DNA of 64,000 bases from Heliocybe sulcata. Lineage: Eukaryota; Basidiomycota; Agaricomycetes; Gloeophyllales; Gloeophyllaceae. The notes under the pieces were generated by a model. The model was not told the origin of the DNA and searched no databases. It was given only the letters and a program-made list of their open reading frames with translations. Location: the NCBI GenBank assembly GCA_004369045.1, contig ML213515.1:754483-818482 (forward strand). The letters run 5' to 3'. Positions 1 through 64,000 of this stretch are shown here, in pieces; position 1 is the first letter of the stretch, and each line of letters begins with the position of its first letter. Made by a program: the position numbers and the translations under genes.

Positions 1-565
1 AGCAACGCTGCGGAAGCACCGGAGTTGACCATAGACAACTATTAGAATACGTGCCATTTGAAACTAACGAGCGTGATGATATTATAGGTACAGCTCGACG
101 CCGTAGCTGAGCGCTGAAGGGCGGGACTGCATCGCGCACGTGGCTGCCTTTCCGGGCGGGAATGCCGACGGTGGCGGGACGGAAGGCTAGCCCGAGGCAG
201 CCTTCAGAGGCCTACAGCAGTCTATACAATGGCTCCCTATATACAGAGGTAGTTGGTAGCTACAGAGTCCCCCCCAGGCCCCGGTAAATCCGCCGGTAGG
301 CCAAATCAGCAGGTTTAACGCTAACTAGCCTGCACCGGCGGGCGTGTGACCCAGGCTAATAAGCCTTGAAGTGTGGGACGTCTAGGTGTACTTAGGCCTT
401 AGGGATACCACAGAAGCATGGGGCAGCGTAGCTTGCGAGAAACAAGTGCACTGTTAGGTTCTGCAACGCTCGATTTGTGGCAATAATGTTTATTTTTAAT
501 CGCAAACGGCACTTGCCGGAGGATACATACGCAGTAAAGCATCGTCTCTTTTAACCTTTTCAGGC
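1..565. other. Intergenic left edge, no gene seen
   Basis: No convincing coding region. Positions about 90-420 are GC-rich and contain a run of seven C at about 270-276, next to a region with TATA-like text. The block has no counterpart in the mirrored right end as far as the window shows, because the mirror runs off the right edge at the base equivalent to about 566. A remnant of a mobile element is possible but nothing diagnostic is visible. Confidence 0.4.
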
Positions 566-604
566 GCTAGATGCCAAGTTACAGCAGGAACGGTACGGAA
601 TACA

Positions 605-800
605 TTCAGACTGGAGAATCGTGGCTCACAGAATATCCTTCGTGTTCGATCTCGCACGAGAATCCAACTCAGCGCTGACCATCAGTACCGGCTGTACTCC
701 TGCGGAATCTGGGCAAACGCCGCGAGAGGATATTCTTTGCTTGCTGCCGGACAATACTTGTTTGCCTCCTAAGAAATATTGCGTTTTGTCCGCGAGAAAA
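605..800 (-). repeat. Dispersed repeat copy 1 (about 190 bp)
   Basis: The same text, with scattered differences, appears on the other strand at 63770-63970 and again at 59720-59900. Shared marks include cagcaagcaaagaata and a stretch around gtgagccac near the other end. The 63770 copy is explained by the outer inverted repeat, the 59720 copy is not. No ends typical of a known transposon could be recognised. Confidence 0.6.
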
Positions 801-1241
801 CCAGATCCCAGGCCCCGCCGCGCAGCTGCATTATGCTCGTCCTGGCATTAATGCTACTACTGAGAGTGAACAGCACAGTATTGATGTCATGTAAGACCTA
901 ATCACTTCACGTTTAGCCTCCGTTTCTTCCGAAGCTATCAATCCAACAAAAAGCGCCGGAACAGCCACGCGCCACCACGAAGCCACACCACACCCCGAGC
1001 ACGTGAGCCAGGCCACAGTCTGAGTGTCACGCATACTCTCGCATCCCACGTCTTCTTTGGATTGCACATTCACAGACTACCTCTTGTTGTCTTGCCTCAG
1101 CTCGAAGCTCTCTACCGTAAAGTCTTTTACCCCTGGTGCGTGGCGTTTCTTTCGTTACATGATCTCGTGCCACAGAACTGACGCTGTCCACCACGCCAGC
1201 CCAACAACCGACTCTGACGAGCTCGCAGCGTCCCATACAAT

Positions 1242-2735
1242 ATGCCACCAATCCACAACCTGCCCACCGAGCTGCTTTCAGAAATATTTTTGTATTACAT
1301 CAGTGCTTGTGCTTTCAACGGAGTGCCCTATGAGTGGCTTAAGCTGATGCTGGTATGCCGACTCTGGAAGGATACCTTCAAATCGCCCGAGTTCTGGACC
1401 GAGTGCGCTATAGGACGGAACAGCGACGCGCTCCTAGTGGCCTTGGAACGTAGTGGACGGAGGATGATATCGATCGACGGGAGCCTGACCTGGCCGCCAT
1501 ATACCCTCCAGACGGTGGCAGATCATGTGCTCCTTATCCAGATTCACCAACACAGAATCCGATCCCTCAATCTGGTCATTACCGGGGTGTTACTGCGAAC
1601 ATGGACGACGCAGATGACCCAGCTGGAGAGCTTATCTCTGCAGAACAAGCCCTGGGCTTGGGAGACGGCTAAGCTTACCCAGTTCCTCTCCCCAACACTA
1701 CAGAAGCTCAAGCTGAAATACTTCACCTGGACCACTGTCGAGCCTCTATTGGTGGGGAATCTACAGGAGCTGACACTCGTGAAGGGATCACTGGAACCGA
1801 TACGCATGGAGGAGCTCCTGGCGGCATTGGCGAAGATGCCCAGCCTACGCCGTCTCCGCATCGACTGGGATCAAACAGATCCAGTGGATGATCTGGCTCG
1901 AGTAGCCCTACCCCGGCTGGAGTCTATCTCGGGCTCTGTTTACCAGCCACAGGAACTTTACTATCTCTTATTCCTGGACGCCCCTGCTATTCGGCACGCA
2001 CGGTTCTCCTTTCGACCACCAGCCATATGTTCCCTGCAAACAGCCCTGAGCTGCATGGAGGATATACTCAGCGTTATAGCAAAGAACGGCGACTTACGCA
2101 GTGCGCGGTTCTATCCGCCTAATGACGAAGAGCTACACGTCACGTTCAGCAACGACCTACCACGACACGAGGTGCTGACCGAGGGAATCCATCTGGAGTT
2201 CGCAACGAAACCCTATCAAGCATTCAGCATCTTTACAGGAGAGATGGGCGATCTCTTCGAGAAGATGGAGACTATCCACGTATATGAAGGAGCGGCGGTC
2301 TGGGATTGCGCGGACTGGCGTCCTGTGGTGATGGGCAACAATATGTGTAACGTCCGTGAACTGCACCTTCAGGGCAGTGCGGTGAAGCTGTTTCCTTACG
2401 GCCTAGACCATCTGTCGTTCAGCGGAAGGTACCCTCGTATCTTCGAAAGTCTCGAGATGCTTTCTCTGGACGACTCAGCGTTGATACCTCGTGAGAGAGC
2501 CTTGGACAAGTCGGCCAAAGCAGAGTTCGTATACAATCTTATAGGATCATTAGAGCGTCACAATAAAGCAACGAACCAAAATCATCCCACCTCGACAATC
2601 GGAGGACAATTCTGCGTTATCCTCAAGAAAGGATGGGAGTTGGAGCCGGACGACGTGGAAGTGATGCGTGGACTGGGGGTGAACGTCACGCGGGAGCTGG
2701 AAGGGGATAGCTCTGAACATGCGCCCAGAGCATGA
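1242..2735 (+). CDS. F-box-like / LRR-like protein, subfamily A
   Basis: Single-exon gene of 497 residues. The N-terminus (residues 7-20, LPTELLSEIFLYYI, then LKLMLVCRLWKDTFKSPEFW at 33-52) fits the F-box-like pattern of a leucine/proline-rich helix followed by a helix ending in a Trp. The rest alternates short Leu-rich strands and helices as in degenerate LRR proteins. By family knowledge this would be an SCF ubiquitin-ligase adaptor whose C-terminal part picks substrates; the substrate is unknown. The ATG at 1242 is the first in frame and has the same position in the mirrored copy A' (61842-63323), which differs by scattered substitutions and small deletions. There is no intron, unlike the nearby spliced genes. 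Both copies are open, so both may be functional. Family assignment is firm as F-box-like; precise function is not known. Confidence 0.85.
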   Translation: MPPIHNLPTELLSEIFLYYISACAFNGVPYEWLKLMLVCRLWKDTFKSPEFWTECAIGRNSDALLVALERSGRRMISIDGSLTWPPYTLQTVADHVLLIQIHQHRIRSLNLVITGVLLRTWTTQMTQLESLSLQNKPWAWETAKLTQFLSPTLQKLKLKYFTWTTVEPLLVGNLQELTLVKGSLEPIRMEELLAALAKMPSLRRLRIDWDQTDPVDDLARVALPRLESISGSVYQPQELYYLLFLDAPAIRHARFSFRPPAICSLQTALSCMEDILSVIAKNGDLRSARFYPPNDEELHVTFSNDLPRHEVLTEGIHLEFATKPYQAFSIFTGEMGDLFEKMETIHVYEGAAVWDCADWRPVVMGNNMCNVRELHLQGSAVKLFPYGLDHLSFSGRYPRIFESLEMLSLDDSALIPRERALDKSAKAEFVYNLIGSLERHNKATNQNHPTSTIGGQFCVILKKGWELEPDDVEVMRGLGVNVTRELEGDSSEHAPRA

Positions 2736-3036
2736 GTCAAAGTGTTCATTCTTTACAGTCATTGGCCTTTTAGAAAAATGTTGGTTGAAACTTAGACAGG
2801 ATGTGGACATGTATGCATAGAGATATCAGAAAATCAGTAGGTAAGCCACCTTACACGACAATGATGATGTTCAGAGCACCATGGATCCGAAGTATCTCCC
2901 CTTGTCGGGAAGTAGCTCAGTGCGCCCATATTTCTAGAACAGGGGATGAATTCAGCGGTATAAGGCGACAAATATGTCCAGATCACATACCTCATGACTA
3001 GTGAATATCCCTCTCGATATACTTATTGTACTTCGC
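2736..3036. other. 3' flank of gene A, conserved in both arms
   Basis: No gene. The stretch is alignable to the reverse complement of 61555-61841, including ggacatg, cagagcaccat and the cagtgcgcccatat segment, so it belongs to the outer inverted repeat. The alignment stops at about 3036, exactly where the truncated B copy begins, which marks a deletion junction. Confidence 0.7.
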
Positions 3037-4154
3037 CGATGTCAGCTGCTATCGAGGACCTGAGTGTCTCGGATAATTCTGGAGGAGCAGCCGAGTATGT
3101 CTGGACCGTGTTGACCGCGACGCCAAACCTGAGACGCCTGAGCATCTGCGCGACCGTGGAAGATGGCGCAACAAGACGCGACGTGGACCTGCCTCAGTTG
3201 GAGAACCTCGCTCTCCGCATCACGAACGGGGCTACAGCGGAGGTATTCGCTCACCTCATTCACCCTGCAAATGCGCGAGTCAAACTAGACGTCATCAGCA
3301 ATGATCTGGAGGAGATCCGGGGCATTATCGAGATAATCGGTCCAAAGGTTAACGCGATGGCCGCGGAAGCCAATTATACAGCGTGTGCGCTGTATCACAA
3401 CAGTACCGATTCCACAACACTAGTGTTGACACGGCCCTCTGAAGCCAATGCTGCACGGGAGACGTCAACGGACCGGGAGGAAGATGAAGAAACGCAACCG
3501 ACATTGGAGCTGGTAATAGAGCTCTATCCTGATGAGGAGGAGGCACTCTTATATGATGCCTTAGCGGAGGCGCTCCTGCCAGCATTGAAGTGGATAGTCG
3601 TCCTCGAGATCCGCGATGTGCGGTTATACAACGAGCCCGACCTCGATCCAACGCGGCACCTGATAAGCCCATTTCCTACACGCCTTATCCGTAGGAAGAA
3701 GCGAAACTGGTCTGATCCACAGAAAACCTGGTACTGGGTCCTTGCCTGCCCATATGTACGACAGATGGAGTTGCTTTATGTGCGATTCCGCAAGACGTGC
3801 AAAAGGCATAACGAGGCCGAGTTTCTGGACCTCCTGCTAAGGTCCATTAAGCACTCCCAGTTAGGAGAGTACGAAAGAAACCTTACTATCGACTAACCGG
3901 TGAATTTGAAGGAAACGGAGGTCGCCGATCTGGAGAAGACGATTCGTACCGTTCACCGGATTGGTCCAACCGGAGAGGAGGATGGCGGCAACGAAGACGA
4001 TGACAAGATCGAGATCTTTGGCGAGAGGGAGGTTGGATGGCTGGAGGAAGACGGCGAGGCAGAAGGAGGAGTGGCTGACCCAACGGAGATCGATGTTGCT
4101 GGAGATATCAACGAGGACAACGGCGAGGATGATGATGTCGAGAATGCGCTATAG
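3037..4154 (+). pseudogene. F-box-like subfamily B, 5'-truncated copy
   Basis: This matches the C-terminal two thirds of B' (56452-58089), starting at the B' segment MSAAIEDL, so the F-box part is missing. It runs in frame until a TAA at 3894-3896, where B' has a Tyr codon (EYPVNL), and then continues in the same frame to a TAG at 4152-4154, still matching the acidic tail of B'. The break thus consists of loss of the 5' third plus one nonsense change. Similarity to B' is high across LPQLENLALRITN and RKKRNWSDPQKTWYWVLACP. An upstream ATG at 2994 lies outside the homology. Most likely a pseudogene of the left arm; a truncated protein of about 290 residues cannot be excluded. Confidence 0.85.
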
Positions 4155-4842
4155 GAGACGAAGAGCGAGTTAAACGAGGAAGAACGCGAGGCAGAAGAAG
4201 AAGGTAGAGTACCGGGCGTCGAGGGCGACATTATAGGATTCGACGGACGGCGCTGCTGGAGAGGAAAAGGGCGGTTTATAACAAGTAGGGTTGAGTAGAC
4301 GGTCGAAGACCCACAAGTGGTTCCTTTCAATGTATACGTTAGCAGTCAGTATACACTGCTAGATTACAATCCAGCTTTCCTGGGATATCAGCGAGAGGTT
4401 AACACGTAGTGCATCGATACGGGATTGACGGCGACGTACGTGAGGGTATAGTCACACCACCCCGTATCATTCGTTCCTCGTCAGCGCTCCTCTACATGAA
4501 CAAGTGTTCCATAGCTTACTGAGGAAGAGGAGGAGGGAATGCATACGCTGCTCTGTAGCTGTGGCATCTTTCATACCACCCGGCAATCGCCGCTGCCCAC
4601 TGTTATAATGAAGGCGCGAGCGGTGAAATGCTTCTCTTTATTTTGTCCTTATCATCGCTGGAAGTATGGGAGTTATAGCAGCAGCCCCCAAACCATGTCT
4701 GGTTCTTGGGCAACATATCTAGCAAGCAATTGATGTTACTACTTGGTAAGTTCTGTGCTTCGGACTGCCTGCGCAAGGCACGCAATCCATCGTGATTATC
4801 GAAGCCATCTACCAAAGACTTCCTTACAAATACTCATCTAGG
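4155..4842. other. Intergenic between B relic and SNF8
   Basis: No gene recognised. Up to about 4595 the sequence is weakly alignable to the reverse complement of 56065-56450, the 3' flank of B'. From about 4600 on it is unique to the left side and should contain the SNF8 promoter and 5' UTR. A GTG at 4792 is in frame with SNF8 but is not a credible start. Confidence 0.5.
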
Positions 4843-5595
4843 ATGCGTCGTTTGGGTGGAGGCATTGCTGCCCTCGAACGACACCAACAAGCTCAAAGCT
4901 CCTTCGCGCAGCTCTCGACCGAAATCTCCCAGACACAAATCACCAACCTCCAATCCCAGCTTTCTCAATTCCGCACCGCGCTCGCCCACTTTGCCTCCAC
5001 CCACCGCGACAAGATTGCCAAGGACCCCTCCTTCCGGTATGCGTTCCAGCAGATGTGCACGTCTATCGGTGTGGACCCTCTCGCTGGCCCGCGCAAGGGC
5101 GGGTGGTGGGCGGAGCTGACGGGCATTGGGGATTGGCAGTATGAGTTGGGCGTGCAGATCGTGGACGTCTGTGTCAGTACGCGAGAGAGGAATGGCGGGC
5201 TGATCGAACTGGCGGAGCTGATCAGGCTGGTGAGTAAGCTGAGAGGCGTGACTAGTGGGGAGATCACGGAGGAGGATGCCGTGCGCAGCATCAGGACGCT
5301 CGAGCCACTGGGTACGGGGTATCAAGTTGTGGACGTTGGTGCGGGGAGGAAGATGGTGAGGAGCGTGGTGAAGGAGTTGGATGATGACCAGATGGTGGTC
5401 ATTGCTATCGCCCAGGATCGCGGTGGTCTGGTTGATGTGGATGGGCTCGTGCAGAAGAGAGGATGGAGTGTTGAGCGCGCAAGAGGGGCATTGGAGAATA
5501 TGCTCTTGCGGGATGGGCTGTGTTGGCTGGATGAACAGGATGAGAGTTGTCCACGGGTTTACTGGGTATTATCGGCGATGCAGTGGGACGAATGA
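4843..5595 (+). CDS. SNF8: ESCRT-II subunit VPS22/SNF8
   Basis: Encodes 250 residues, close to the usual 230-260 for the family. SNF8/VPS22 is the central subunit of ESCRT-II, which with VPS25 and VPS36 acts at endosomes in sorting ubiquitinated cargo into multivesicular bodies. The N-terminus MRRLGGGIAAL is typical of the family, followed by a helical hairpin (LQSQLSQFRTALAHFASTHRD), then the hallmark MCTSIGVDPLAGPRKGGWWA and IGDWQYELGVQIVDVC, and two winged-helix regions ending in GLCWLDEQ. The start is placed at ATG 4843 because the family begins MxRxGxG. The gene is intronless here and single-copy in the window. It sits between the F-box arms and has no sign of decay, as expected for a housekeeping gene. 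Confidence 0.93.
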   Translation: MRRLGGGIAALERHQQAQSSFAQLSTEISQTQITNLQSQLSQFRTALAHFASTHRDKIAKDPSFRYAFQQMCTSIGVDPLAGPRKGGWWAELTGIGDWQYELGVQIVDVCVSTRERNGGLIELAELIRLVSKLRGVTSGEITEEDAVRSIRTLEPLGTGYQVVDVGAGRKMVRSVVKELDDDQMVVIAIAQDRGGLVDVDGLVQKRGWSVERARGALENMLLRDGLCWLDEQDESCPRVYWVLSAMQWDE

Positions 5596-6547: not shown

Positions 6548-7835
6548 ATGCCATTGACCCTAGTGGGCATTAGAACGTCAGCAGCCAGAGCCGTAAGTCA
6601 CATTCATGGCCAGTGGCTATCGTTCTTATAGCTTAACAACTGTATAGGGCAAACATGTGTATGGCATGGCCTACAGTACAATGAGGGGCCTCGTATTCCG
6701 AGGCAAAGGCGATTTCGGCGTCGAGGAGCGACCAAAGCCGGAAGTGGTGCGGCCAGGCGACGCCGTCGTCAAGCTCGCAAAGTCGACCATCTGCGGTACG
6801 CTGGCCATCCCACTCACGTCCACGACGCCACTAACACCAACACCACGTAGGCACGGACCTGCACATCCTGAAGGGGGACGTGCCGACCGTCGCGGCGGGG
6901 CGCATCCTCGGGCACGAAGGCCTTGGCACCGTCGAGTCCGTCGGCGCGAGCGTCTCCGCGTTTGCGCCGGGCGACAGAGTCATCATCTCGTGCATCACCG
7001 CGTGCGGGACGTGCGCGTTCTGCGCGCGCGGGTTGCCCTCGCATTGCACGTCCGGCGGGTGGGTCCTGGGTAACACAATCGACGGCACCCAGGCGCAGTA
7101 CGTGCGCATCCCGCACGCGGACACGAGCCTGCACCGCGCGCCGAAGGGGGTAGACGAGGACGGGCTGGTGATGATCAGCGATATACTGCCGACGGCGATG
7201 GAATGCGGGACGCTGAATGGCAAGGTGAGGCCCGGGGCGACGGTAGGCATAGTCGGGGCGGGGCCGGTCGGGCTCGCGGCGTTGTTGACTGCGCAACTGT
7301 ACTCGCCGATGAAGACAATCATGATTGACGTCGACGAGAACCGACTGCGTGTAGCGGAGTCATTAGGCGCCACGCATACGGTAGTGTCGGGGCCGGATGC
7401 TGTGAAGAGGGTAATGGAGATAACGGAGGGGGCAGGAGTGGACACGGCCATCGAGGCGGTAGGCATACCTGCGACGTTCGAGCTGTCGCAAGAGATCATC
7501 GGCGTCGGTGGCAACATAGCAAACGTCGGCGTTCACGGCGGAAAGGTCGATCTACACCTCGAGAAGCTCTGGGACCGGAATATTTGTGAGTTTGCCGCCC
7601 CCCACCGCGTCTACTTCGCTGGACTCACCACGTACTGCCATGGCTAGCCATTACCACCCGCTTAGTGGACGCAGTGACGTCCCCCACGCTCATCAAGCTC
7701 GTCGAGGCGGGCAAGATCAATCCAACTAAACTAACGACTCACAACTTCAAGTTCTCGGAAATCGAGCAGGCCTACTCATCCTTCGCTGCTGCGGCAGAGA
7801 ACAGGGCGCTCAAAGTCATCATCGACTTTAAGTGA
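6548..7835 (+). CDS. Zinc-dependent medium-chain alcohol dehydrogenase (4 exons)
   Basis: Exons 6548-6592, 6648-6795, 6851-7585 and 7648-7835, all with GT-AG introns of 55-62 nt, give 371 residues. Catalytic-domain marks are STICGTDLH (catalytic Cys), GHEGLGTVESVG (GHE zinc motif) and the structural-zinc lobe ACGTCAFCARGLPSHC with four Cys. The Rossmann fold shows GIVGAGPVGLAAL, and IMIDVDENRL places an Asp at the end of the second strand, favouring NAD over NADP. The C-terminus ends ITTRLVDAVTSPTLIKLVEAGKI, also typical. It would oxidise an alcohol or reduce an aldehyde; the substrate is not readable. The first 25 residues are basic and hydroxylated, so a mitochondrial presequence is possible; a second ATG (MAYSTMRGLVF) could start a shorter form. 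Single copy, intact, with neighbours SNF8 and a kinase-like gene on the same strand. Confidence 0.9.
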
Positions 7836-9979: not shown

Positions 9980-10904
9980 CGTTGAGGCAACCATCGCTCG
10001 CAATCCCTCTTTGAATCCGCAAGTTCGCTGGGTGTATGTTTCTGTGCCATTATTCCGCTGTTTCGTTTGCGTCTTCGCCCCGCCGAGGTGCTCTTTCGTT
10101 CTATGGGCCACACGCCTTGCGCTCGGGAGATTGTGAGGTCTTAGGATTCTGCTGACGCCTTGGGTTGAGATACAGTATCCACTGAAGTCTGGGAGTCACT
10201 CTATACCAGTCTCGGACGAACAGCTCCCCGCGCATGCCCATACCAGAAGGTGGGAACCCGGACTGAAAGTTCTATGGGCGACGCGTGCCATCACGTGATA
10301 GGAATTTGCGGCCGGAGTGCACAGAGTCATCCGACTTGTTGGGTGACTCAGAGATCCTGTTGAATGAGACTTCATCCAGTCAAGTCTGCAACCGGTTCAG
10401 CAACAATCTCTCCGTCTCCGTTATCAAACTAGTCACAACACTGCCGTCCTCTGATGTAGGTAAGCAACCATTCGAAGGGCGTTGCATGCTGGATTGCACT
10501 GGAAGTTGGCTACCCACCTATCGTTACGCGCCACAGGGAATTTAGCAACCGGCTCAAGACCGGAACCAAGATTTTGGGAGTATCTGGTCACCGTTACACG
10601 CTACATAGGTGCGTTTTAGCAACGCGATGGGCCTCGCGTTACAGGTTACCTTGCTTACCTACACCCGAGTACAGTGCTAGTTTGGTACAGTTTCTGGATG
10701 TACCTCGTACTTCCCTCGCTGCATGCCCCCTGAGCTTGGTACCTCCCGTAGCTCTGCGAAGTTATCCGGCATCTCTTCTACCATAGGTCGACATATCTCG
10801 GCTAGCGCTGGCGTCTGCTTCCTCCTTACCGCAGGAGGTGGTGGGCAAGCATGCGCTACCGCATACAGTGCCTTGAATTTCTGGATGGCTGCTTTATGCT
10901 TCCC
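9980..10904. other. Intergenic, no gene seen
   Basis: No recognisable coding region or repeat. It separates the single-copy island from the first F-box unit (U0). The right boundary, about 10905, is where similarity to the end of the U1 spacer begins. Confidence 0.5.
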
Positions 10905-11844
10905 ATACTTCTTCTATCTCCCTCCCCTACTGTTCATACCAGTCCCAGGAGGCATTCAAGAACACATTGCAGAGGAACGGCTCATCAAGGAGCATGATAT
11001 CTCGCTGAAAGATATGGATACATCTCAGGGTGGCAGGGCTTTTGGTGTCTTGAGGTCGCTCGAGCGACGAGAAGACCTCATCAGACCTATGGAGCCATCG
11101 TCGTTGCTGAAGCCTTTTTGAAGGGTCGATGTGCTGCCTGACACGTGTAGGCATCGCGAGGAAGAACGCTCTTCACGTCTCGACGGCCTCCTTGTCGAAT
11201 CCTCGCTGCGTGTCCGTCCGTCCTGGAGGCTCACGTATATGGTCTTGTACATATCTTCGTCGCTGTCTGGAATGGCAGTACCGTTTCTCAGCACCACCAT
11301 CTGTCCACCGGACTGTTCTCAGAGATCGTAGTGCGGTTCCTCCCACTCGCCTCCGACTTTCGGTATTCTGTTTTGCTTGAGGCCCTTTGAGTGCTGACAA
11401 TGGCTTATCGGGTGTTTCGTGTGCTGCTGGAGTTGCCGTTCAAGTGATTTGGCAGGGCGACGGAAGAAGTTGCCCTGGTCTTGGCCGCGAACGGCGGATG
11501 TCTTGTAGAACCGGACAGACTCGCACTCCACCAGGAACAACCGAGGGAAGGGCGGCGGTCAACTCACAGGTCCGCCGTGGAGGCCACAATACACGAGGCT
11601 TGTATGGAGCGTCAATGTTGTGCGGCTGGCATCCGAACTGGACTATAGAGAAGGTGCAGATCGCGCAGAATCCGCTATTGATTGCATTGCATACGACTAG
11701 GGGTACAGCCGGAGTCATTTCTATGGACACAAATGTGATGTTGAACCTCGCTATCTTATGCTATTACCGTGCCCTCTGTTCGCCCGTCATGCATCTACAG
11801 GTCAAATCCTAGGTCATCCGAACATTCTCTTCGAGCTCTTCCTC
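10905..11844 (-). repeat. C-D spacer copy, unit U0
   Basis: This is the sequence that in U1, U2 and U3 lies between genes C and D. It contains no intact gene. On the plus strand it carries a decayed reading frame with an EHIAEERLIKEHDI motif that recurs in all four spacer copies. The D gene that should follow is missing in U0. Confidence 0.7.
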
Positions 11845-13698
11845 TTATTCGTACTCCTCGTCTTCCTCCGATACGTACTCCTCTTCTTCCTCTCGAACAT
11901 CCTGGCCCGCATACTCTTGCTCTTCGGACGCGTCGCGATCGGACTTCTCGACTTGAAGTTGATCCCATACGATTTCGGCGACGAGAGTCTCCAGCAACAA
12001 GATATCATCCTCGAAGAGATTGAAAGCCCGTGTAATGGTAAGATTTTGGATACGATTGCTGGCGCAACGTTGATAAAGTCTTCCCAGCTCTCCGCCAGCT
12101 TCGGCTTTGCGGCTTCCTGTTCGACTTCGGCGGAGGATCGATGATACCAAGGTGTCCAAGAAATTGTTCTCGTCGTCGACGGTAGATGGCGGGGACTCCC
12201 GGAACCATACGCCTTCTAGTTCTAATGACTCCAGCGCCGGAAAGAGAACATGGAACACGAAAGACCCCCCGACCTTCGTTGGATATACGAGGCCCGTAGG
12301 TATCGTTGAGGTACTGTGTCCTGACAGCTGCAGCTTTCTGATGTGCGACATGGAAAGAAAGAATTCTCTCCACGCTGTCGCCATGTAATCCGCGTACCCG
12401 CGCCCATTCCGAACGCTCAAACACTGGACGGACTCGAGCAGGGAGCGCAGGTGCTGCTTGAGGAGGTATAGGATGAGGTCTCCGTATCCCAATTCGTGAT
12501 CGAACACAATAGTGATGCCTTCGGTCTGCGTGATCGCACATGTGGAGGCTGCCTGTGGTGTGAACATGACACAAATGTGCCGGCCGTCGAGGACTTGGAT
12601 GGTGCATCCACGCACATTGACGGACGTGAGGTGGCAGGCGTATTGCTCCAGGATCTCCACCACGTCCTCGAAATCGGAATATATTTTCAGGCCTACCCGC
12701 TTGATATTGGGGGCTCTGACGAACGCCAGCAAGTCGGCTTCTCTGGTGCTGCAGGGGCTGATCTCTAAAGTGCGCAGATCCTGCAATACGACGTTCTTCA
12801 CCAGGCCAGCGGTCTCGGCTGTGCGCTGGACTTCCACCCCAAGCCTGAACGTCCGCAGCTTGGGCGCGCACGACAGCAGATGGACTACTTCGCCTGTTGT
12901 CATGACGGTCTGAGTCCCGGAGATGTGGAGGTCCGTCAACGTCGCGGTGATCAGCATGCTGAACTCGTCGAAGCGAAACGCTGCACCACTCAGCCGTACG
13001 CGTTTCAAGACGGGTGACGTGAAGAGGGACAAGTCGGCCTGTCCCAGTCCGGCTTTGCCGACGCACACGATGGCGAGGTCTTCCAGCAGGCTCGCTCCAG
13101 GGCCGGCCTGCCCACTGGTTTGGGCCAGAATGCGCGACGACACCTTTAAATCCAGCTTGCGGACGCGAGGTAGTTCTTCCCGAATAAGAGACCACTTCTC
13201 TACGTCGGTTTGTCGTGCTGCGTCAATGACGCGACTTCTATGGTCTTCCCAGTCATCCAATGCTCTCTCCATTCTTGCTCGCTCGGATGGCATCAACCTC
13301 TTGCGCTCCCTCTCGAGCTTGTCCTCCAGTTGCCAGATGGTCTCCTCCACCGCCGCTAGTTCCTGACTAGTCGATCCCCTCCTCTCTCCGACGAGAGCGC
13401 CAATAACGGTCAAGGGGAGTTGGTTAGAACGAGCAAGGAAGGATGCCATTGCGTCTTGGTTCGTGGTAATCACCGTGGTCCAGAGAGTGTGGTATTGGAG
13501 GGCGGTGGCGCGCCACGCTTTGCTGACCAGCGCGACGGAGGTCCAGGCGTAAGGTGAAACACTTCCGCTTCGTATCGCATCCTCTATCGCTCTGTCCTTC
13601 ATGATTGAGAATATTATCCCGAGTAGCTCGGGTGGTAAGGCGATCCGCCGTGGCACAACGGTGTTGAACACCCTGCCGTTGATGCGATACTTCACCAT
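11845..13698 (-). CDS. F-box-like / LRR-like protein, subfamily C (U0)
   Basis: Single-exon gene, 617 residues from the ATG at 13698 (MVKYRINGRVF). F-box-like text is at residues 20-31 (ALPPELLGIIFS) and VALVSKAWRATALQYHTLW at 55-73. Residues about 110-165 are rich in Glu, Arg and Leu and may form a long helix; LRR-like repeats follow, then an acidic tail with repeated EE and Y (EEEEEYVSEEDEEYE). The frame stays open another 70 codons upstream, but in the U3 copy that upstream stretch is frameshifted, so it is judged untranslated. Only one residue differs from the U1 copy over the first 560 residues, whereas the C-terminal 60 differ strongly and resemble the U2 fragment. Likely an SCF adaptor; substrate unknown. 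Confidence 0.85.
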   Translation of the reverse strand: MVKYRINGRVFNTVVPRRIALPPELLGIIFSIMKDRAIEDAIRSGSVSPYAWTSVALVSKAWRATALQYHTLWTTVITTNQDAMASFLARSNQLPLTVIGALVGERRGSTSQELAAVEETIWQLEDKLERERKRLMPSERARMERALDDWEDHRSRVIDAARQTDVEKWSLIREELPRVRKLDLKVSSRILAQTSGQAGPGASLLEDLAIVCVGKAGLGQADLSLFTSPVLKRVRLSGAAFRFDEFSMLITATLTDLHISGTQTVMTTGEVVHLLSCAPKLRTFRLGVEVQRTAETAGLVKNVVLQDLRTLEISPCSTREADLLAFVRAPNIKRVGLKIYSDFEDVVEILEQYACHLTSVNVRGCTIQVLDGRHICVMFTPQAASTCAITQTEGITIVFDHELGYGDLILYLLKQHLRSLLESVQCLSVRNGRGYADYMATAWREFFLSMSHIRKLQLSGHSTSTIPTGLVYPTKVGGSFVFHVLFPALESLELEGVWFRESPPSTVDDENNFLDTLVSSILRRSRTGSRKAEAGGELGRLYQRCASNRIQNLTITRAFNLFEDDILLLETLVAEIVWDQLQVEKSDRDASEEQEYAGQDVREEEEEYVSEEDEEYE

Positions 13699-13958
13699 AG
13701 CAGACGCGCGATGCAAGATGTATGTATCAACTGGGTGGTCGTAACTGATGTCAGTGTGAAGTGCGCGAAGAGTGGCAGAATATGTGAAGGCAAGACGTGA
13801 GTGGTAAGACGTCGTGGCGAAAGCAACTCCGACAGTCTCGCGTGGCACGTGACCGGGTGGCTCCGAGCCACACGAAACGCGATCTTCTATGTCATTCGAT
13901 ACTGACATCCTAGACGTGCTGCAGGAATAGAATAGATTATGAGTTCAGTCATTTCCTG

Positions 13959-29060: not shown

Positions 29061-29086
29061 AAAACCGACGATGAACGTCACTCCCT

Positions 29087-48681: not shown

Positions 48682-48967
48682 CACAGGCCCGCCGTGGAGG
48701 CCATGCTATACGAGGCCTGTCTGGAGCTCAGTGTTTTACGGCTGGCATCCGAGCTGGATTATAGAGAAGGTGCACATCGCGCAGCATCCGCTATTGATTG
48801 CATTGCATGCGACTGGGGGTACAGAAGGAGTCATTTCAATGGAGACAAAGGTAACCTTACACCTCGCTATCTTATACTATTACCGTGCTCTGTTCGTCCT
48901 TCATGCATCTACGATACTCCTCGGTCAAATCCTAGATCATCCGAACATTCTCTTCGTACTCTTCCTC
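48682..48967 (-). repeat. C-D spacer copy, unit U3 (C-proximal part)
   Basis: Continuation of the spacer beyond the inserted D fragment, aligning to 20425-20690 of U1 and 29830-30110 of U2. No gene. Confidence 0.7.
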
Positions 48968-50821: not shown

Positions 50822-52179
50822 AGCCGAAGTGCGATGTAAGAGTGTATGTATCGACTGAGCGCGTATAACAGATCCTGATACGAGGTGCGCGAAGAGTGGC
50901 AGAATATGTGAAGGCGAGACGTGAGTGGTAAGACGTCGTGGCGAAAGCAACTCCGACTTGACAGTCTCGTGCGGCACGTGACCGGGTGGCTCCGAGCCAC
51001 ACGAAATGCAATCTTCTGTGTTATTCGATGCTGACGTCCTCGACATAATGGAGGCATTGGAACGTCAACATCATTTATTCTGAGTCCCATCATGTCCTGT
51101 CTTTGTTGATTAGTTAACCGCAAACACCAAGACTCGACTTCGCTGCACAACGGAGCTTTTTACAACACAGTGGACACGTTCTTGGAGAATTCCGTACTAG
51201 ATACATTCTATCCCTGCTCATAACCTTCTGATATGGTGGTAGCTGGACTCTTTTCTTGCTTGGTTAGAGGACCTTGGCGGAGTGCAATGGATACATTCGG
51301 TGAGGACACATTTGTAGAGGTCCACTATCTTGATGGTCTCGCGCTTGCAGATTCTTCAGGCGGTCGCCGATCAGTCACTGACTGACGCCGTTTCTCTGAT
51401 TGACAGCTGACCCAGTCGGGCTACCGTACCCACGCCAGTGGTACCGTTTAGCAACAGACTGGGAGTAAGTCCCTTACGTTCGCCTACTCGGATGCCAGTT
51501 GTGGCCTATCTCTAGAGTTCATCTTGTCCGCTCAGAGAAATTCTCGATATCTACAAGACGCCAAAGGTGTCTTTATCACCGCTCCGACTACGCAGGTACT
51601 AAGGAGAGTAATCCGTTAACATCGGGCGGGGACAACCGATTCATACCGAGTTGCTCACGGATACTTCATTGGATATTCATACTCTCCTGTTATGCTCCAA
51701 GCTATGAGAATGGTCGTCCCACTTGTACGTCTGACTCGAGTTGTCTGTTCGACCAGACCACCTAGTGAAAGGGCCACTTGTAAGCATCAACCCTGGCCAA
51801 CCGGTCAGCTTCACGATCACAACTTCTACTTGTTGAACCACGCAGAGCAACAGTTCACCCAAACTGAAGGCCTCCCATTCGTTGCATTGCTGCTTGCGTC
51901 TGGACTGCTTCAATTAGCGGCATGGCTTCGAGGTATCCAACGGCAAGGTGACTGCGTTATGCTAGGAAACATCGATGCTAACTTCTCGCCACAGGGGAAG
52001 AATAATCGGATATGTGAGACCCTTCTGATATGTACCAGAGTGGCCCCGTATACAAGAAGAGCTGCTCCAGGTGCGTAGGATCGGCTGCGACCAGCTTCTG
52101 CGTCAGAGAACGGCCTGACATTCCAGCAGGGTACTCACCACTACTGTTACTACGTTAGCAGTTTTCAACTTCAGAGGAC
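50822..52179. other. 5' flank of C (U3) and unassigned sequence
   Basis: To about 51075 this is the C 5' flank shared with U0 and U1. The rest, 51076-52179, shows no gene and no counterpart elsewhere in the window that I could find. Confidence 0.45.
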
Positions 52180-54980
52180 CCGGATTTGTAGTGTACGGTA
52201 CTTTATAGTATTTATGGGTGATTCAGTGATGGCCGTGCTGGTTGCGCAGAAAAGGCGCCGTCTACTCGTCGGAGCGTGCCGGCCCGTTGATCTAGTATCG
52301 CGCCGTCCGCGTTGAACAACTTGGCCCGTTGTCATGATGCGACCAGCACGAAGTCCATGCGAAGCTGAACATCCTGCCGCAGTATCCAAACACCCCATTG
52401 TTCAATGATCATCGGGTACTTGAATACGGTATTTCTGTGTTCTGTTATTCGGAACAACAGGGCGTTTCTCTTCTTCTAACTGATAAAGGTTCACTGGTGC
52501 GTCGACGGACAATTCATAGCTCAATTACGGTGCTGATTCTCTCTAGATATATAGATGAATCCATTATAATAACCATCTCCACGCAATCGATCCTCCTAAC
52601 TTTCGCTTTGGTGCGACAAGCGGCAAATTTGCAGCCCGCTGCATGATCGAGTATGGCAGCGAAAATGGTGATCCGGGAAGGTGAGCGTGCTCCAGCCTCT
52701 CAATACTGAATAAGAAGGACTTGAAATCAGTGTTGTCGATCGTTCCCTCATAATCTTGGAAGACAATTATTCGCCGCTCGCCTCCGAAGCAGTCGTGGAT
52801 GCTAGCTCCTCGGGCTTTACTCGAGACACATCCGTACGGTGAGGTCATTTTATTGGAATATTTCTACAGTCTTCTAACCTGACTATTATAGATTCGTAAT
52901 CATTCGACTCCACACTCTTCGTCGTCCCACATTACTTTCGCCCCCAACTCGCGCAACGCCTGCACATCCTTCAGTAGCAATTGTTGTCCTTTGGTTATGA
53001 TAACATGGAGCTGTACTCCAGATTCTAAAGTAGGATTGTTTGTTCTGTTCGCCTCACGGTGACGCTCTAACGATCTTTCCAGCTCGTGAAGGAAGTTTGT
53101 TTTGCCGAACAACACGTTCCTCAAGGATAGTACCTCGAGGTTCTTAAAGACGGGGCAGTAAGTTTCCTTCTTAGAGTCCAAGCCGTAGGGAAGCAGCTTG
53201 ATCGTGCTACCCTCCAGATGTAAATTGCGAATATGGGAGAACTTTGTGCAAATCTTTTGCCAGTAGCCAGAAAACGAGATGTCTGCTCCATCCACAACCT
53301 CTAGGCTTTTGAAGCTCTGAAAGGCGGCCCCCATCATTTCCGCTATGATGCTGAGACTCTGATAGGCTTCCCCCAGCGGCAATCTGACGTGAATCCCTTC
53401 GCTAGAGAGCCTGCGTCTTGTCGGGTCGTTTCTGAATGTGATGTGGAGCTCTTTGGCATTGCACAGGCAGAATCGGGCTGTGCACGGTCGACAATTCATA
53501 GCGGCGGCACGGAGCAGGTGCTCGATTTTTGATAAAGCCGCATTCATTTCACTTGCGTCCAACCACGCAAATTCCAGGTGTAGATGTCGAAGAACCGGGG
53601 TGGAAATGAATGTCAGAGAAGTCAAGTCCTCCATGCCGAGTGCGCGGCTGCTGGTGAGAGACTCTAGACGTGGTAGAATGACAGGATGCACATCCTTCAC
53701 CACGACCGTCTGATACCACCCATCGATATGCAGCTTGCGTAGGTGTGGCATTCCTGCCAGCGCCGCCAAGAGCTCCTCCGTGTGTATGACTTCCCATGGA
53801 TCGCTGGCCAGCGTGAGTTCTTCCAGGCCATCTCTCAGTGCGGGTCTGACGGCAGCCCAAGGAAAATCTCTCAGCTCCAACGTTCTCAGTTCGGGTGAGT
53901 CGAAATGCGACAGCATGGCTGCTTCGTCGACCTCTTGAGGACACAAACCCCGCACAGTCAGCGACAAATCCCTCAGCTTCGTCATGGTGGTGGTCCACGT
54001 CTTCAGTGAGCTCATCCCGATATCTAGTTTCAGAGCTCGGATCCTGTGCTGATGGCTTTGCAAGAGCAATAGATCCGGGACGTGCCGAAGATTGATGTCT
54101 CAGAAACCCTTTATCGCTCCGCTGATGGATAACGGTGCCTCCTTGCTCTTGTGTAGAGCCACAGGAAGTGCCCATTGACTCCTTCGGCCTTCCAGAATGA
54201 TCTCCCTCCAAAATATCGGCGATTCCAGGATCTCCTTCCACCGGGCGCATACGACCATCAACTTGACCCACTCATATGGGTTCCGATGACAATTAGCAAC
54301 GTAGTACAGAAACACTTCTTGAAGGAGTTCGAAGAACAAGTCCTTGATTCCAGGCATCTTCACAGACGGCTTTGAGAGCTGCAACTGTGGTCGTGGGCGA
54401 CGCGTTAAAAGGCGTCAATACGGTGGCACGGGTGAACGAAGGCGATTGCGTACGTCAGGGTCTGATGTTACAAAGGAAAGAGACGTGAGCTGATAACGAT
54501 GCAGTAGCACAGTGGTGCTCTGGAGAATGAGTTCTGGGACGAGATGCAGTACCGCAGAGTACGCGTACAAGACGAGCGTGGCTCGCATTCATGCTGGTTG
54601 GTCCTGCTGCCCGCGTGGTCTGTGTGGCACTTCCCACGATTCTTGCCTCGATTCTATTCGCTGCTACCGATCGCCGAGTTCTCGTCGATACGAGCTCTTG
54701 AGCGGTCAATACAGGTTTGTGGAATGCGACTCTCGTTTCTATATCATTGGTTCTTACATGAAGTAGTCATCTGAACAGGTTCCATGATGAAGACATCTCT
54801 CTGTCCTTGGTGCTGCGAAGACACCTCCGACCGTTCTTGTAATCCAAGCCGCACAGAGAGAAATTTTGCCATGGCCTGGTCATCAATTGCGTTGGCTGGT
54901 ATCCAACGGTGCGGATAGAGTACGTTCTACTCATCCTCAGATCCTGGCTCCTTGTGATGCTAACTTGGAGCACGTCTCAG
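52180..54980 (-). repeat. Unit U4: E copy with its flanks
   Basis: On the minus strand: E promoter region (54358-54980, like 40948-41340), E copy, E 3' flank (52440-52899) and, at 52180-52300, text matching the 3' flank of the DUF3292-like gene (38880-38990). It is a more diverged version of the E end of the unit. Confidence 0.7.
52900..54357 (-). pseudogene. F-box-like subfamily E with one in-frame stop (U4)
   Basis: 485 codons from MPGIKDLFFELLQ (ATG 54357). F-box-like text is intact (LFFELLQEVFLYYVANC, LMVVCARWKEILESPIFW). A single TGA at 54102-54100, at about residue 86, interrupts the frame; before and after it the match to the other E proteins stays in register (GAIKGF, stop, then DINLRHVPDLLLLQ). 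The remaining 400 codons are open to TGGDDEECGVE-like text and a stop at 52900. No splice sites remove the TGA. It is the most diverged E copy, so finding just one break is notable: either recent loss, or restart at the ATG near 54069. Called a pseudogene with that reservation. Confidence 0.75.
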
Positions 54981-55070: not shown

Positions 55071-55074
55071 TTAT

Positions 55075-56451: not shown

Positions 56452-58089
56452 TTATAGAGGATCCTCAACGGTGTTCTCGTCCTCTCCATCATTCTCGTTG
56501 AGTACTCCTTCTCCTGCCTCGTCGTCTTCCTCCAGCCTGGCAGTCTGCCGCTCTCCAAAGATCTCAACCGTGTCGTCCTCGGTGTTGCCGCCGTCCTCCT
56601 CCCGGGTCGGACCAGCTTGGTAAAAGTCGCAAGCAATCGCCTTCTCCAGATCGGCGACATCTCTTTCATCCAAATTCACTGGGTACTCCATAGTGAGGTT
56701 TATTTTTTCCATTCCCGACTGGGAATACTGAATAGACCTTAGCAGAAGGTCCACAAAGTCGTCCTCGTTATGCCTCTTGAGCGTCTTGCGGAAACGCACA
56801 TAGAACAACTCCATCTGCCGTAGGTATGGGCATGCAAGCACCCAGTACCAGGTTTCCTGCGGCTCGGCCCAGTTCCGCTTCTTCCTACGGATGAGGCGTG
56901 TGGGGAACGGGCCCATCAGGTGCCGCATTGGATAGTAGCCTGGCTGGTTGTATAACCACATGTCGCGGATCTCGAGGATAACTATCCTCTTCAAGGCTGG
57001 CAGGAGCGCCTCCGCTAAGGCACCGTAAAGGAGGGCCTCTTGCTCCTCAGGATAGAGATCTACTCGTAGCTCCAGTCTCGGTCGCGTTTCTTCGTCTTCC
57101 TCGCGGTCCGTTGACGTATCCCCTGCAGAAGGCTGTGACAACGCTACTGTTGTGGAAGGGATATTGTGATGGCACAGCGCACACGCAGTGTAGTTGGCTT
57201 CCGCGGCAATCGCGTTGATCTTTGGACCAATGATATCGATTATGCCTCGGATCTCCTCCAGATCTTTACTGATGATGTTTAGGTGGACTCGCGTGTTTGC
57301 GGAGTGAACGAGGTGGGCGAATACCTCCGCGGTGGCCTGGTTCGTGATACGGACATTGAGACTCTTCAGCTGAGGAAGGTCGAGGTCTCGTCTTGTGGTG
57401 CCATCTACTACGGTCGTTTGGATACTCAGGTGTTTCAGGTTTGGCGTCGCGGTCAATGCCATCCATACATCTTCGGCTGCTGCTTCAGGATTGTCTGCAA
57501 GTATGAGATCCTCGATAGCAGCTGACATCAGCGGCTGCGCGCCTCTAATGGGAATCCTGAAGAGCACGAGGTCCTTCAAAGCAGGGGCGACGAATGGCAT
57601 GATGACGGTAGGCGGTATGGTATATTCGCTGTTGCCGTCTTCGTGCCAGAGTTCCGCGCGCTCTAGTTCCGCGCGCTCCAGGTCCGTCATATGCCACATC
57701 TCGGGCACCCTCTTCTTGCAGAATCTCTCCCAAAGAGCGCCCGGGATAACCATGTGCAATGAGGCAATCACCTGCGAGTAGCGCTCAAGGACGTCGAAGA
57801 AGTCGGACATTCTCTGCTCATCAACAGGCTTTCTTATGACGATGCGCACCCCCGGCTGCGCTGCGCGCTCCAGGAACAAAGCAGCCAGAGCGGGGTGGTC
57901 CGTGGCGATGCAGTTCCAGAGATTTCTCTTCCATATCATGATCTCTTGGATCGTTTTGGAAATGTGTGTCATCCGCAAGAGCACCTTCATCCGGGCTTGC
58001 TCCCCCCTTATATCAATGGTCGCAGAAACAACGATCTTCTCCACGATCTCCGGGGGAATTGTGTTCATGGAAGCGGGAGTGAGGGCCAT
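56452..58089 (-). CDS. F-box-like / LRR-like protein, subfamily B
   Basis: Single-exon gene of 545 residues from ATG 58089 (MALTPASMNTIPPEIVEKIV). The N-terminus is a more diverged F-box-like segment: TIPPEIVEKIVVSATIDI, LLRMTHISKTIQEI and KRNLWN. LRR-like repeats follow (LTATPNLKHLSIQTTV, DLPQLKSLNVRIT), a Lys/Arg patch LIRRKKRNWAEPQETWYWVL, and an acidic tail (EEDGGNTEDDTVEIFGER to DENTVEDPL). A short duplication ERAELERAEL is visible near residue 140. The truncated counterpart is at 3037-4154. Upstream in-frame ATG codons are absent, and the start context (aaaATGG) is good. Presumed SCF adaptor; it is the least canonical of the five subfamilies. Confidence 0.83.
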   Translation of the reverse strand: MALTPASMNTIPPEIVEKIVVSATIDIRGEQARMKVLLRMTHISKTIQEIMIWKRNLWNCIATDHPALAALFLERAAQPGVRIVIRKPVDEQRMSDFFDVLERYSQVIASLHMVIPGALWERFCKKRVPEMWHMTDLERAELERAELWHEDGNSEYTIPPTVIMPFVAPALKDLVLFRIPIRGAQPLMSAAIEDLILADNPEAAAEDVWMALTATPNLKHLSIQTTVVDGTTRRDLDLPQLKSLNVRITNQATAEVFAHLVHSANTRVHLNIISKDLEEIRGIIDIIGPKINAIAAEANYTACALCHHNIPSTTVALSQPSAGDTSTDREEDEETRPRLELRVDLYPEEQEALLYGALAEALLPALKRIVILEIRDMWLYNQPGYYPMRHLMGPFPTRLIRRKKRNWAEPQETWYWVLACPYLRQMELFYVRFRKTLKRHNEDDFVDLLLRSIQYSQSGMEKINLTMEYPVNLDERDVADLEKAIACDFYQAGPTREEDGGNTEDDTVEIFGERQTARLEEDDEAGEGVLNENDGEDENTVEDPL

Positions 58090-59700: not shown

Positions 59701-59719
59701 TACGCCGTCGTTCTGATGG

Positions 59720-61495: not shown

Positions 61496-61841
61496 CGACC
61501 TCCTCAAAATGTACCGAGAATTCAAAATGTGCAGAGCAAGTCTTTTATGGCCAAGTGTAATAAGTATATCGCGAGAGATATTCACTACCCATGAGGTATG
61601 TCATCCGGACATGTTCATCTCCTTATACCGCTAAATCCATCCCCTGTTACAGAGATATGGGCGCACTGAACTACTCCCAGACAAAGGGACATACTTCGCA
61701 TCGATGGTGCTCTGAATATCAGCGCTGTCGTGCTCATCTACTGATGGTTTGATATCATGATGCATTCATGTCCACATTCTGTCTGAGTTGCGACTAGCAT
61801 CTTTCTAAGAGCACCAGGACCATAAAAATGAACACTTTGAC
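61496..61841. other. 3' flank of A', conserved in both arms
   Basis: No gene. From about 61555 on it aligns to the reverse complement of 2736-3036. The point 61555 marks where left and right arms part company. Confidence 0.6.
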
Positions 61842-63323
61842 TCAAGGTCTGAGCGCATGTTCAGAGCTATCCTCTTCCACCTCCCGCGTTACGTTCGCCC
61901 CAAGTCCGCGCATCACTTCCATGTCCTCCGCCTCCATCTCCCACCCTTTCTTGAAGATGACGCAGAATTGTGATCCAATCGTCGAGGTAGGATCATTTTG
62001 ATGTGCCCTACTGTGATGCTCTAATGATTCTATAAGATGGTGTATGAATTCTGTTTTGGTCGACTTGTCCAATGCTCTCTCGTGAGGTATCAACGCTGGG
62101 TCATCCAGAGAAAGCAGCTCGAGGCTTTCGAAGATACGAGGGTACCTGCCGCTGAACGACAGATGGTCTAGGCCGTACGGAAGCAGCTTCACCGCACTGC
62201 CCTGAAGGTGCAATTCGCGGACGTTGCACATATTGTGGCCCATCGCTACGGAACGCCAGTCCGCGCAATCCCAGACCGCCCCTCCTTCATATACGTGGAT
62301 AGTCTCGAAGAGATCGCCCATCTCTCCTGTGAGGATGCTGAATGCTTGATGGGGTTTCGTTGCGAACTCCAGATGAATTCCCTTGGACAGCACCTCGGGT
62401 CGTGGCAGAACGTTGCTGAAAGTGACGTGCAGCTCTTCGTCATTAGGCGGATAGAACCGCGCAGTGTGTAAGTCGCAGTTCTTTGCTATAACGCTGAGTA
62501 TGTCCTCCATGCAGCTCAGAGCTGTTTGCAGGGAACATATGACTGGTGGTCGAAAGGAGAACCGTGCGTGCCGAATAGCAGGGGCGTCCACGAATAAGAG
62601 ATAGTAAAGTTCCTGTGGCTGGTAAACACAGCCCGAGATAGACTCCAGCCGGGGTAAGGCTACTCGAGCCAGATCATTTACTGGATCTGTTTGATCCCAG
62701 TCGATGCGGAGACGGCGCAGGCTGGGCATCTTTGCCAATGCCGCCAGGAGCTCCTCCATGCGTATCGGTTCCAGTGATCCCTTCACGAGTGTCAGCTCCT
62801 GTAGATTCCCCACTAATAGAGGCTCGACAGCGGTCCAGGTGAAGCACTTCAGCTCGAGCTTCTGCAGTGTCGGGGAGAGGAACTGAGTAAGCTTAGCCGT
62901 CTCCCAGGCCCAGGGCTTGTTCTGCAGAGATAGGCTCTCCAGCTGGGTCATCTGCGTCCTCCATGTTCGCATCAACACCCCGGTAATGACCAGATTGAGG
63001 GATCGGATTCTGTGTTGGTGACTCTGGATAAGGAGCACATGATCTGCCACCGTCTGCAGGGTATATGGCGGCCAGGTCAGGCTCCCGTCGATCGATATCA
63101 TCCTCCGTCCACTACGCTCCAAGGCCACTAGGAGCGCGTCGCTGTTCCGTCCTATAGCGCACTCGGTCCAGAACTCGGGTGATTTGAAGGTATCCTTCCA
63201 GAGTCGACATACCAGCATCAACTGAAGCCACTCATAGGGCACTCCGTTGAAAGCGCAAGCTCTGATGTAATACAGAAATATTTCTGAAAGCAGCTCGGTG
63301 GGCAGGTTGTGGATTGGTGGCAT
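61842..63323 (-). CDS. F-box-like / LRR-like protein, subfamily A (right arm)
   Basis: Single-exon gene of 493 residues, about 93-95 percent identical by eye to the left copy at 1242-2735. F-box-like LPTELLSEIFLYYIRACAF and LMLVCRLWKDTFKSPEFW are intact, as are the LRR-like repeats (LQKLELKCFTW, MPSLRRLRIDW). It differs by small deletions, for example three residues in GDLFETIHVYEG and one near SLEHHSRAHQNDP, all keeping frame, which suggests selection on the protein. Start ATG 63323 matches the left copy. Confidence 0.85.
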   Translation of the reverse strand: MPPIHNLPTELLSEIFLYYIRACAFNGVPYEWLQLMLVCRLWKDTFKSPEFWTECAIGRNSDALLVALERSGRRMISIDGSLTWPPYTLQTVADHVLLIQSHQHRIRSLNLVITGVLMRTWRTQMTQLESLSLQNKPWAWETAKLTQFLSPTLQKLELKCFTWTAVEPLLVGNLQELTLVKGSLEPIRMEELLAALAKMPSLRRLRIDWDQTDPVNDLARVALPRLESISGCVYQPQELYYLLFVDAPAIRHARFSFRPPVICSLQTALSCMEDILSVIAKNCDLHTARFYPPNDEELHVTFSNVLPRPEVLSKGIHLEFATKPHQAFSILTGEMGDLFETIHVYEGGAVWDCADWRSVAMGHNMCNVRELHLQGSAVKLLPYGLDHLSFSGRYPRIFESLELLSLDDPALIPHERALDKSTKTEFIHHLIESLEHHSRAHQNDPTSTIGSQFCVIFKKGWEMEAEDMEVMRGLGANVTREVEEDSSEHALRP

Positions 63324-64000
63324 ATTGTATGGGACACTGCGAGCTGGTCAAAGTCGGTTGTTGGGCTGGCGTGGTGGAAAGCGTCAGTTCTGTGGCACGA
63401 GATCATGTAACAAAAGAAACGCCACACACCAGGGGTAAAAGTCTTCACGGTAGAGAGCTTCAAGCTGAGGCAAGACAACAAGAGGTAGTCTGTGAATGTG
63501 CAATCCAAATAAGAGATGCGAGAGTACGCATGACACTCAGACTGTGGCCTGGCTCACGTGCTCGGGGTGTGGTGTGGCTTCGTGGTGGCGCGTGGCTGTT
63601 CTGGCGCTTTTTGTTGGATTGATAGCTTCGGAAGAAACGGAGGCTAAACGTGAAGTGATTAGGTCTTACATGACATCAATACGGCGCTGTTCACTCTCAG
63701 TAGTAGCATTAATACCAGGACGGGCATAATGCAGCTGCGCGGCGGGGGCTGGGACCTGGTTTTCTCGCGGACAAAATGGAATATTTCTTACAAGGAGGCA
63801 AACAAGTATTGTCCGGCAGCAAGCAAAGAATACCTTCTCGGGGCGTTTGCCCAAATTCCGCACGAGTAAGTACTCAGCCAGTACTGATGGTCAGTACTGA
63901 GTTGGATCACGTGCGAGATGGGACACGAAGAATATTCTGTGAGCCACGATTCTCCAATCTGAATGTATTCCGTACATTTCCTGCTGTAACTTGGCATCTG
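63324..64000. other. 5' flank of A', right window edge
   Basis: Mirror of 566-1241 with high similarity. No gene; includes dispersed repeat copy 3 at 63770-63970. The inverted repeat continues beyond the window. Confidence 0.6.

Follow-up and report, generated by a model that had tools for sequence, protein, structure and literature searches.

A 64-kb stretch of the Heliocybe sulcata genome (Gloeophyllales; hereafter the window, C13:754483-818482, on a contig of the 31.6-Mb, 51-contig assembly) was found to lie within a degenerate palindrome that is about 105 kb long, extends beyond the window at both ends and carries genes of an F-box/leucine-rich repeat (LRR) family. Two inverted, collinear copies of a block of at least 38 kb flank an axis that falls at a DUF3292 gene, and the locus probably grew through the birth-and-death of FBXL-type adaptor genes of the Skp1-cullin-F-box (SCF) kind, by inverted and tandem segmental duplication together with ectopic gene conversion.

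Mirror Organization of the Locus

The window was compared with itself by BLAST, and an extended comparison took in 50 kb to its left and the rest of the contig to its right, 248 kb in total (negative coordinates lie to the left of window base 1). The extended comparison revealed 11 inverted blocks whose order is perfectly reverse-collinear between a left arm (-29300 to 29079) and a right arm (37920 to 76247) separated by an 8.8-kb spacer, a regularity that excludes chance as the source of the mirror layout. Within the window, inverted diagonals were obtained for A (569-3037 / 61549-63999, 91%), B (3034-4072 / 56504-57533, 80%), U0/U1 (10899-13960 / 18284-21379, 93%), U1/U3 (21677-25923 / 41270-45540, 86%) and U1/U4 (18226-20698 / 48682-51159 and 20699-21678 / 47006-48003, each 89%), and a direct one for U1/U2 (19662-24414 / 29088-33773, 82%). 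The mirrored diagonals expected from a preliminary description of this DNA are therefore present, including its mirror of A-B with B'-A', but the structure is not confined to the window and runs past both sides, with outer inverted matches pairing -29300..-11919 with 64389..76247 at 79-90% identity. As that description had it, U0 mirrors U1 and U1 and U2 are tandem; U2, however, is only a partial copy, which starts in the middle of the C gene and so leaves its C gene without the 5′ part, while U3 and U4 together (37920-51159) mirror U1 (18226-29079) as a single copy. A 1,465-bp insertion breaks this copy, as does an extra D-gene piece of about 675 bp in U4.

Mean arm-to-arm identity is 88.2% (25,611 aligned sites) and uneven across the 11 blocks (chi-square 174, df 10), which differ by 8-20% between the arms, and synonymous divergence (dS) is heterogeneous among five mirror pairs, ranging from 0.16 to 0.43 (p 4e-8). 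The left arm is the longer one; it contains U0, genes of the EAP30 and alcohol dehydrogenase families, 5.3 kb of extra sequence and a run of N covering 11.8 kb. The symmetry is broken by indels, truncations and the inserted piece of about 675 bp; the left B gene directly adjoins the A block, and about 4 kb lie between A and B in the right arm.

The DUF3292 fragment of the left arm (28285-29079) mirrors the 3′ part of the full-length match at 36308-38852, and the duplication breakpoint crosses this gene at the axis. The right arm leads on into the full-length DUF3292 gene, but the left arm stops at a truncated one, and we infer from this that the left arm was copied from the right. Separately, the repeated stretches 59132-59691 and 60723-61462 are about 64-71% like the DUF3292 region 37142-37954 and are probably decayed DUF3292 copies near F-box genes, and a further DUF3292-like copy was located at 120308-121080.

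The earlier proposal that the locus grew through segmental duplications, inverted as well as tandem, is supported by the diagonals, the gene tree and the reverse collinearity. The F-box/LRR family would have multiplied in place, a large block would have been duplicated in inverted orientation around the DUF3292 axis, smaller inverted (U0) and tandem (U2) copies would have been added, and indels, truncations and the inserted piece would have eroded the symmetry. That the mirrored order was instead assembled piecewise by serial independent duplications, with no single large inverted duplication, is rather unlikely; the uneven mirror-pair divergence would suit such a history, and U0, U2 and the tandem pair H2/H3 clearly arose separately, yet patchy conversion accounts for that unevenness as well, and 11 perfectly reverse-collinear blocks are difficult to build up one piece at a time.

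It is also unlikely that two nuclear haplotypes or collapsed repeats were joined head to head in one scaffold during assembly. The contig does contain runs of N, one of 11,799 adjoining the left end of the window, and the identical runs of 1,473 bp and 1,160 bp among the copies could be one contig placed twice. The window itself, however, is without N and U0, U1, U2 and U3 lie within one gap-free stretch, the arm blocks have diverged as given above, some genes occur in one arm only, the ratio of non-synonymous to synonymous divergence (dN/dS) is well under 1, and a separate N-free stretch of contig C33 has the same layout.

Only two other clusters, on C33 and C22, were read. On C33, four F-box-family regions (L025-L028, C33:45338-66494) form a second palindrome with five reverse-collinear inverted matches (45338-54019 vs 58678-66494, 73-85%), arms of 7.8-8.7 kb and a spacer of 4.7 kb. 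Since the partners within this palindrome are sister to one another in the tree and not to C13 genes, the C33 palindrome appears to have a separate origin from that on C13. The small F-box cluster on C22 consists of two tandem copies and one inverted copy. A stretch of about 0.8 kb is 95.6% identical between C33:59862-60656 and C13:940530-941324 and is probably a recently moved repeat.

The F-box/LRR Gene Family

Though the preliminary description distinguished five F-box subfamilies, 38 of the 492 stop-to-stop open reading frames (ORFs; ≥110 aa, 248 kb) fall into one single-linkage homology group, made up of the long ORFs of the F-box region and some short pieces and spanning -35.5 to 138.6 kb, and the subfamilies are clades of one tree. 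The closest relatives of A, B, C, D and E are on C13 at about 681-893 kb, with weaker ones on C33, C11, C6, C7, C26 and C5. Ten family genes of the window have long open frames (AL, C0, C1, D1, D2, E3, D3, C4, B right and AR), and the other four (B left, E1, the C gene of U2 and E4) have lost part of the gene or carry a broken frame.

When ten ORFs were searched with the F-box profile, AL, C4 and E3 scored over the Pfam cut-off and C0, C1 and E1 just under it, while D1, both B ORFs and the E4 ORF lacked an F-box match; in the genome-wide scan C0, C1 and E1 pass, and AR and D6R are also over the cut-off. At least 139 F-box-like matches at E ≤ 0.01 were counted in the genome, with 150 of 229 candidates scored, some of the matches under the Pfam cut-off. 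The structural model has N-terminal helices followed by an LRR-like solenoid, thus predicting the C-terminal LRR solenoid of FBXL-type adaptors, and its fold matches include TIR1, the F-box protein D3 (not gene D3 of this locus), FBXL2, FBXL17, Skp2 and, more weakly, COI1, while solved structures searched by sequence gave three weak LRR-type matches. The F-box, LRR and FBXL-type fold matches thus agree with the earlier proposal of SCF-adaptor-like proteins, which would bind Skp1 through their F-box and substrates through their LRR solenoid.

Protein searches for relatives elsewhere yielded one Heliocybe sulcata protein, two further proteins and one weak match from Daedaleopsis nitida, in searches so insensitive that one failed to return an E protein of 42% identity; a lineage restriction of the family is only suggested by them. 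The C1 protein is 84% identical to the deposited Heliocybe sulcata protein, which corresponds to the C4 gene.

The evolutionary tree comprised 33 rows (29 ORFs from C13 and four from C33, partial pieces included), and the deeper joins, at which the program flags long branches, were not used. Mirror partners are sister to each other for By, B2, B1, A, D6 and E1/E3 (support 99-100/98-100), a pairing that could stem from the duplication or from later conversion, and C4 groups with C0/C1 (90/95). D3 is sister to D2 and not to D1 (100/99), as predicted by its mosaic structure.

Sequence Exchange between Copies

Several pairs of copies carry patches of high identity between diverged flanks. A tract common to C0 and C1 spans 1,635 bp with a single mismatch, beside flanks of 94% and 79-93% in sliding identity, and the longest chance run in 2000 permutations of the mismatches was 284 bp, so none of the 2000 reached the observed length; five consecutive 80-codon windows show dN = dS = 0, and the last window has a dS of 0.35. 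Over 44140-45540 (about 1.4 kb) D3 matches D2 at 95-100% identity, and over 42470-43670 (about 1.2 kb) it matches D1 at 92-99%, against about 73-93% in the opposite comparisons. A maximum chi-square of 255 (0/1000 permutations), with a break near U1 position 23473, marks U3 as a mosaic of U2 and U1, and the D2/D3 tract reaches upstream non-coding DNA, with an identical run of 195 bp at 45346-45540. A direct tandem F-box pair beyond the window (L015 and L016, 110222-113651 / 116324-119721) shares an identical run of 1,160 bp between diverged flanks. Other mirror pairs, among them B, C1/C4 and the outermost blocks, were without a strong tract of this kind.

These patches are best read as ectopic gene conversion. 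The C0/C1 tract lies within the left arm and the D1/D3 and D2/D3 patches cross the axis, so exchange appears to have occurred across the axis, within one arm and between direct repeats. That the copies exchange sequence, as had been proposed, is borne out by the tracts, the permutation tests and the mosaic test. Two further observations concern the same regions: a third copy of the tandem pair lies inverted at 84715-87598, and the 1,465-bp insertion (45541-47005), which bounds the D2/D3 tract, sits in a low-GC stretch of U3 and is possibly a mobile element.

Inversion itself was not found to promote this exchange. In a survey of 37 aligned pairs on C13, C33 and C22 (28 inverted and nine direct; ≥600 bp, ≥75% identity), identity runs longer than twice the permutation maximum, a bar chosen after the table was seen, occurred in 4/28 inverted and 1/9 direct pairs. 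At p<0.01 the counts were 17/28 and 5/9, under a permutation that disregards rate differences between coding and non-coding DNA. The C33 pair 50206-52302 / 60657-62802 carries a strong tract. On C13 the direct tandem pair beyond the window (L015 and L016) has one as strong as that between palindrome copies. No preference for inverted pairs thus emerges, inversion as the driver of conversion is unproven, and it was not demonstrated that the palindromic form keeps copies exchanging sequence.

The D-gene piece in U4 lies about 290 bp beyond the stop codon of C4, with a frame open over 303 codons, and the deposited model OE88DRAFT_1755897 joins C4 and the piece into one predicted protein of 991 aa, a possible chimera. 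Changes private to the piece, counted where D1, D2 and D3 agree and one base differs (17 multi-change codons excluded), number 13 non-synonymous and 14 synonymous, where uniform change gives 3.5 to 1. Since the private changes of D1 are alike (8 non-synonymous, 10 synonymous), the constraint on the piece may date from before its insertion. A transposon origin of the insert was considered and rejected, as no target-site duplication was recognized by eye and one junction has only a short GTG match.

All 21 ORF pairs examined gave a dN/dS between 0.21 and 0.56 (Nei-Gojobori), and single 80-codon windows exceeded 1 only where dS was ≤0.05. No pair is above 1, so positive selection is not supported, nor is the label of a fast-evolving recognition module where it implies such selection. 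The family would evolve under overall purifying selection with birth-and-death, in which conversion homogenises copies and also builds mosaics.

In a further possibility, drawn by analogy with plant S-locus F-box genes, arm-to-arm conversion would actively maintain the palindrome and so renew a non-self recognition repertoire. Two F-box palindromes (C13 and C33) with the small mirrored C22 cluster, the cross-axis mosaic and the chimera speak for it, but a preference of conversion for inverted pairs was not demonstrated, no pair has a dN/dS above 1, and opposite-strand neighbours are about equally common in p450 genes, which makes it quite improbable. Within 15 kb, such neighbours made up 12/17 neighbour pairs of F-box matches outside C13, 3/9 of those on C13 and 7/11 pairs of p450 genes, both family lists being lower bounds; orientation alone is therefore not peculiar to F-box genes, and an F-box-specific inverted orientation was not borne out. 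We consider it just as doubtful that the palindrome was selected as a device for trading F-box/LRR segments to yield mosaic or chimeric receptors (D3; C4 with part of D) that may serve to recognize parasites or non-self, with independent C13 and C33 layouts. Local purifying selection in place of conversion is a very improbable source of the patches, because, though most moderate departures in the 37-pair survey could arise from coding and non-coding DNA changing at different rates, synonymous sites in the C0/C1 tract are identical too, the D2/D3 tract with its 195-bp identical run covers upstream DNA, and in other pairs these parts of the genes are diverged.

Other Features of the Window

The features of the window are listed in Table 1. 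The ORF at 9062-9976 gave weak kinase/phosphotransferase matches, every one of them under the cut-off. No tRNA genes were found, 3 kb of sequence had no near match in the phage collection, and TTAGGG arrays, looked for as a sign of subtelomeric position, were not found in the 248 kb, which reach the contig end.

Table 1. Features of the 64-kb window of Heliocybe sulcata.
Feature	Position	Strand	Basis or remark
A block, left arm, with F-box/LRR gene AL (ORF 1242-2735)	389..3037	+	Mirrors 61549-64177; PF12937 28.5 bits, over cut-off
B gene, left copy, 5′ part lost	2994..3896	+	Matches residues 187-533 of right copy
EAP30/Vps36-family gene	4750..5592	+	PF04157 193 bits; no mirror copy in 248-kb comparison
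Zinc-type alcohol dehydrogenase-like gene	6835..7644	+	PF08240, PF00107; no mirror copy in 248-kb comparison
U0, inverted C-gene copy (C0, ORF 11845-13908)	10895..13960	-	Self-BLAST, sliding identity; 4.3 kb away from C1
U1, first part: C gene C1 (ORF 18336-20420) and downstream DNA	18226..21678	+	Self-BLAST, sliding identity
Probable gene-conversion tract common to C0 and C1	18599..20233	+	1,635 bp, one mismatch
U1, second part: D gene D1 (ORF 21847-23658) and flank	21677..25923	+	Self-BLAST, sliding identity
E gene E1, frame broken	26136..28076	+	Matches in two pieces; one in-frame TAG
Truncated DUF3292 gene copy, inner end of left arm	28285..29079	-	PF11696 profile 392-520; 28391-29079 mirrors 37920-38647
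U2, tandem partial copy of U1: C gene without 5′ part and intact D2 (ORF 31248-33059)	29088..35146	+	Self-BLAST
Full-length DUF3292 match at palindrome axis	36308..38852	+	PF11696 profile 22-648, four open pieces
E gene E3, mirror of E1 (ORF 39439-40953)	39183..41156	-	Self-BLAST, F-box profile, tree
U3: D gene D3 (ORF 43544-45370) and flank, mosaic of U2 and U1	41270..45540	-	Sliding identity, maximum chi-square
1,465-bp insertion	45541..47005	.	Absent at corresponding place in U1 and U2
U4: C gene C4 (ORF 48968-51046), continues U3 as mirror of U1	47006..51159	-	Self-BLAST, sliding identity
D-gene piece inserted behind C4 (open frame 47850-48758)	48004..48681	-	Deposited model joins piece to C4
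E gene E4, frame broken	52903..54099	-	One in-frame TGA in C13:807412-808839
B gene, right copy, frame intact	56452..58089	-	Sequence comparison, tree
A block, right arm, with F-box/LRR gene AR (ORF 61842-63323)	61549..64000	-	Continues to 64177

Comparison with Known Systems

The locus records how a gene cluster grew, through a large inverted duplication whose direction is hinted at by the cut DUF3292 gene, extra tandem and inverted copies, conversion patches and a possible chimera, and it is a concrete site for asking whether an inverted layout alters the rate of ectopic conversion and whether segment exchange alters substrate recognition. Among the papers listed in literature searches, judged by titles and the openings of abstracts, no account of a palindromic F-box locus in a fungus was found, which is weak evidence.

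Mammalian sex-chromosome palindromes undergo arm-to-arm gene conversion, and the arms of the human Y palindromes are near-identical. In mammals these palindromes consist of two inverted arms around a spacer, with gene families in large inverted repeats, according to the part of the source available to us (PMC3308322). The present locus resembles them in its long inverted arms around a spacer with a gene family and, as a sequence pattern, in conversion between the arms (D1/D3 and D2/D3), but it is fungal and nested with tandem copies, its conversion is patchy, and its arms, about 88% identical, are not near-identical throughout.

Plant S-locus F-box proteins have a C-terminal domain that differs from that of the proteins encoded here. 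As far as the consulted portion of PMC12033343 describes them, the plant SLF/SFBB clusters share with this locus local F-box genes, segmental duplications and putative gene conversion. No RNase domain was detected in 20 further ORFs scanned, although such a domain could be masked by introns and the partner gene in a fungus might encode some other protein. With Skp2, FBXL2, FBXL17, TIR1 and the F-box protein D3, the modelled protein shares N-terminal helices and an LRR-like solenoid, though the sequence identity of the fold matches is just about 9-15%, and Skp1 binding is here a prediction.

F-box families are expanded in Agaricomycetes, and in mushrooms they are large and little understood. 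The family described here, with its F-box-like matches across the genome, resembles the expanded Agaricomycetes families in size, going by the portion of PMC8893723 at hand. Duplication, conversion and birth-and-death are known processes, and their display at this locus is unusually clear.

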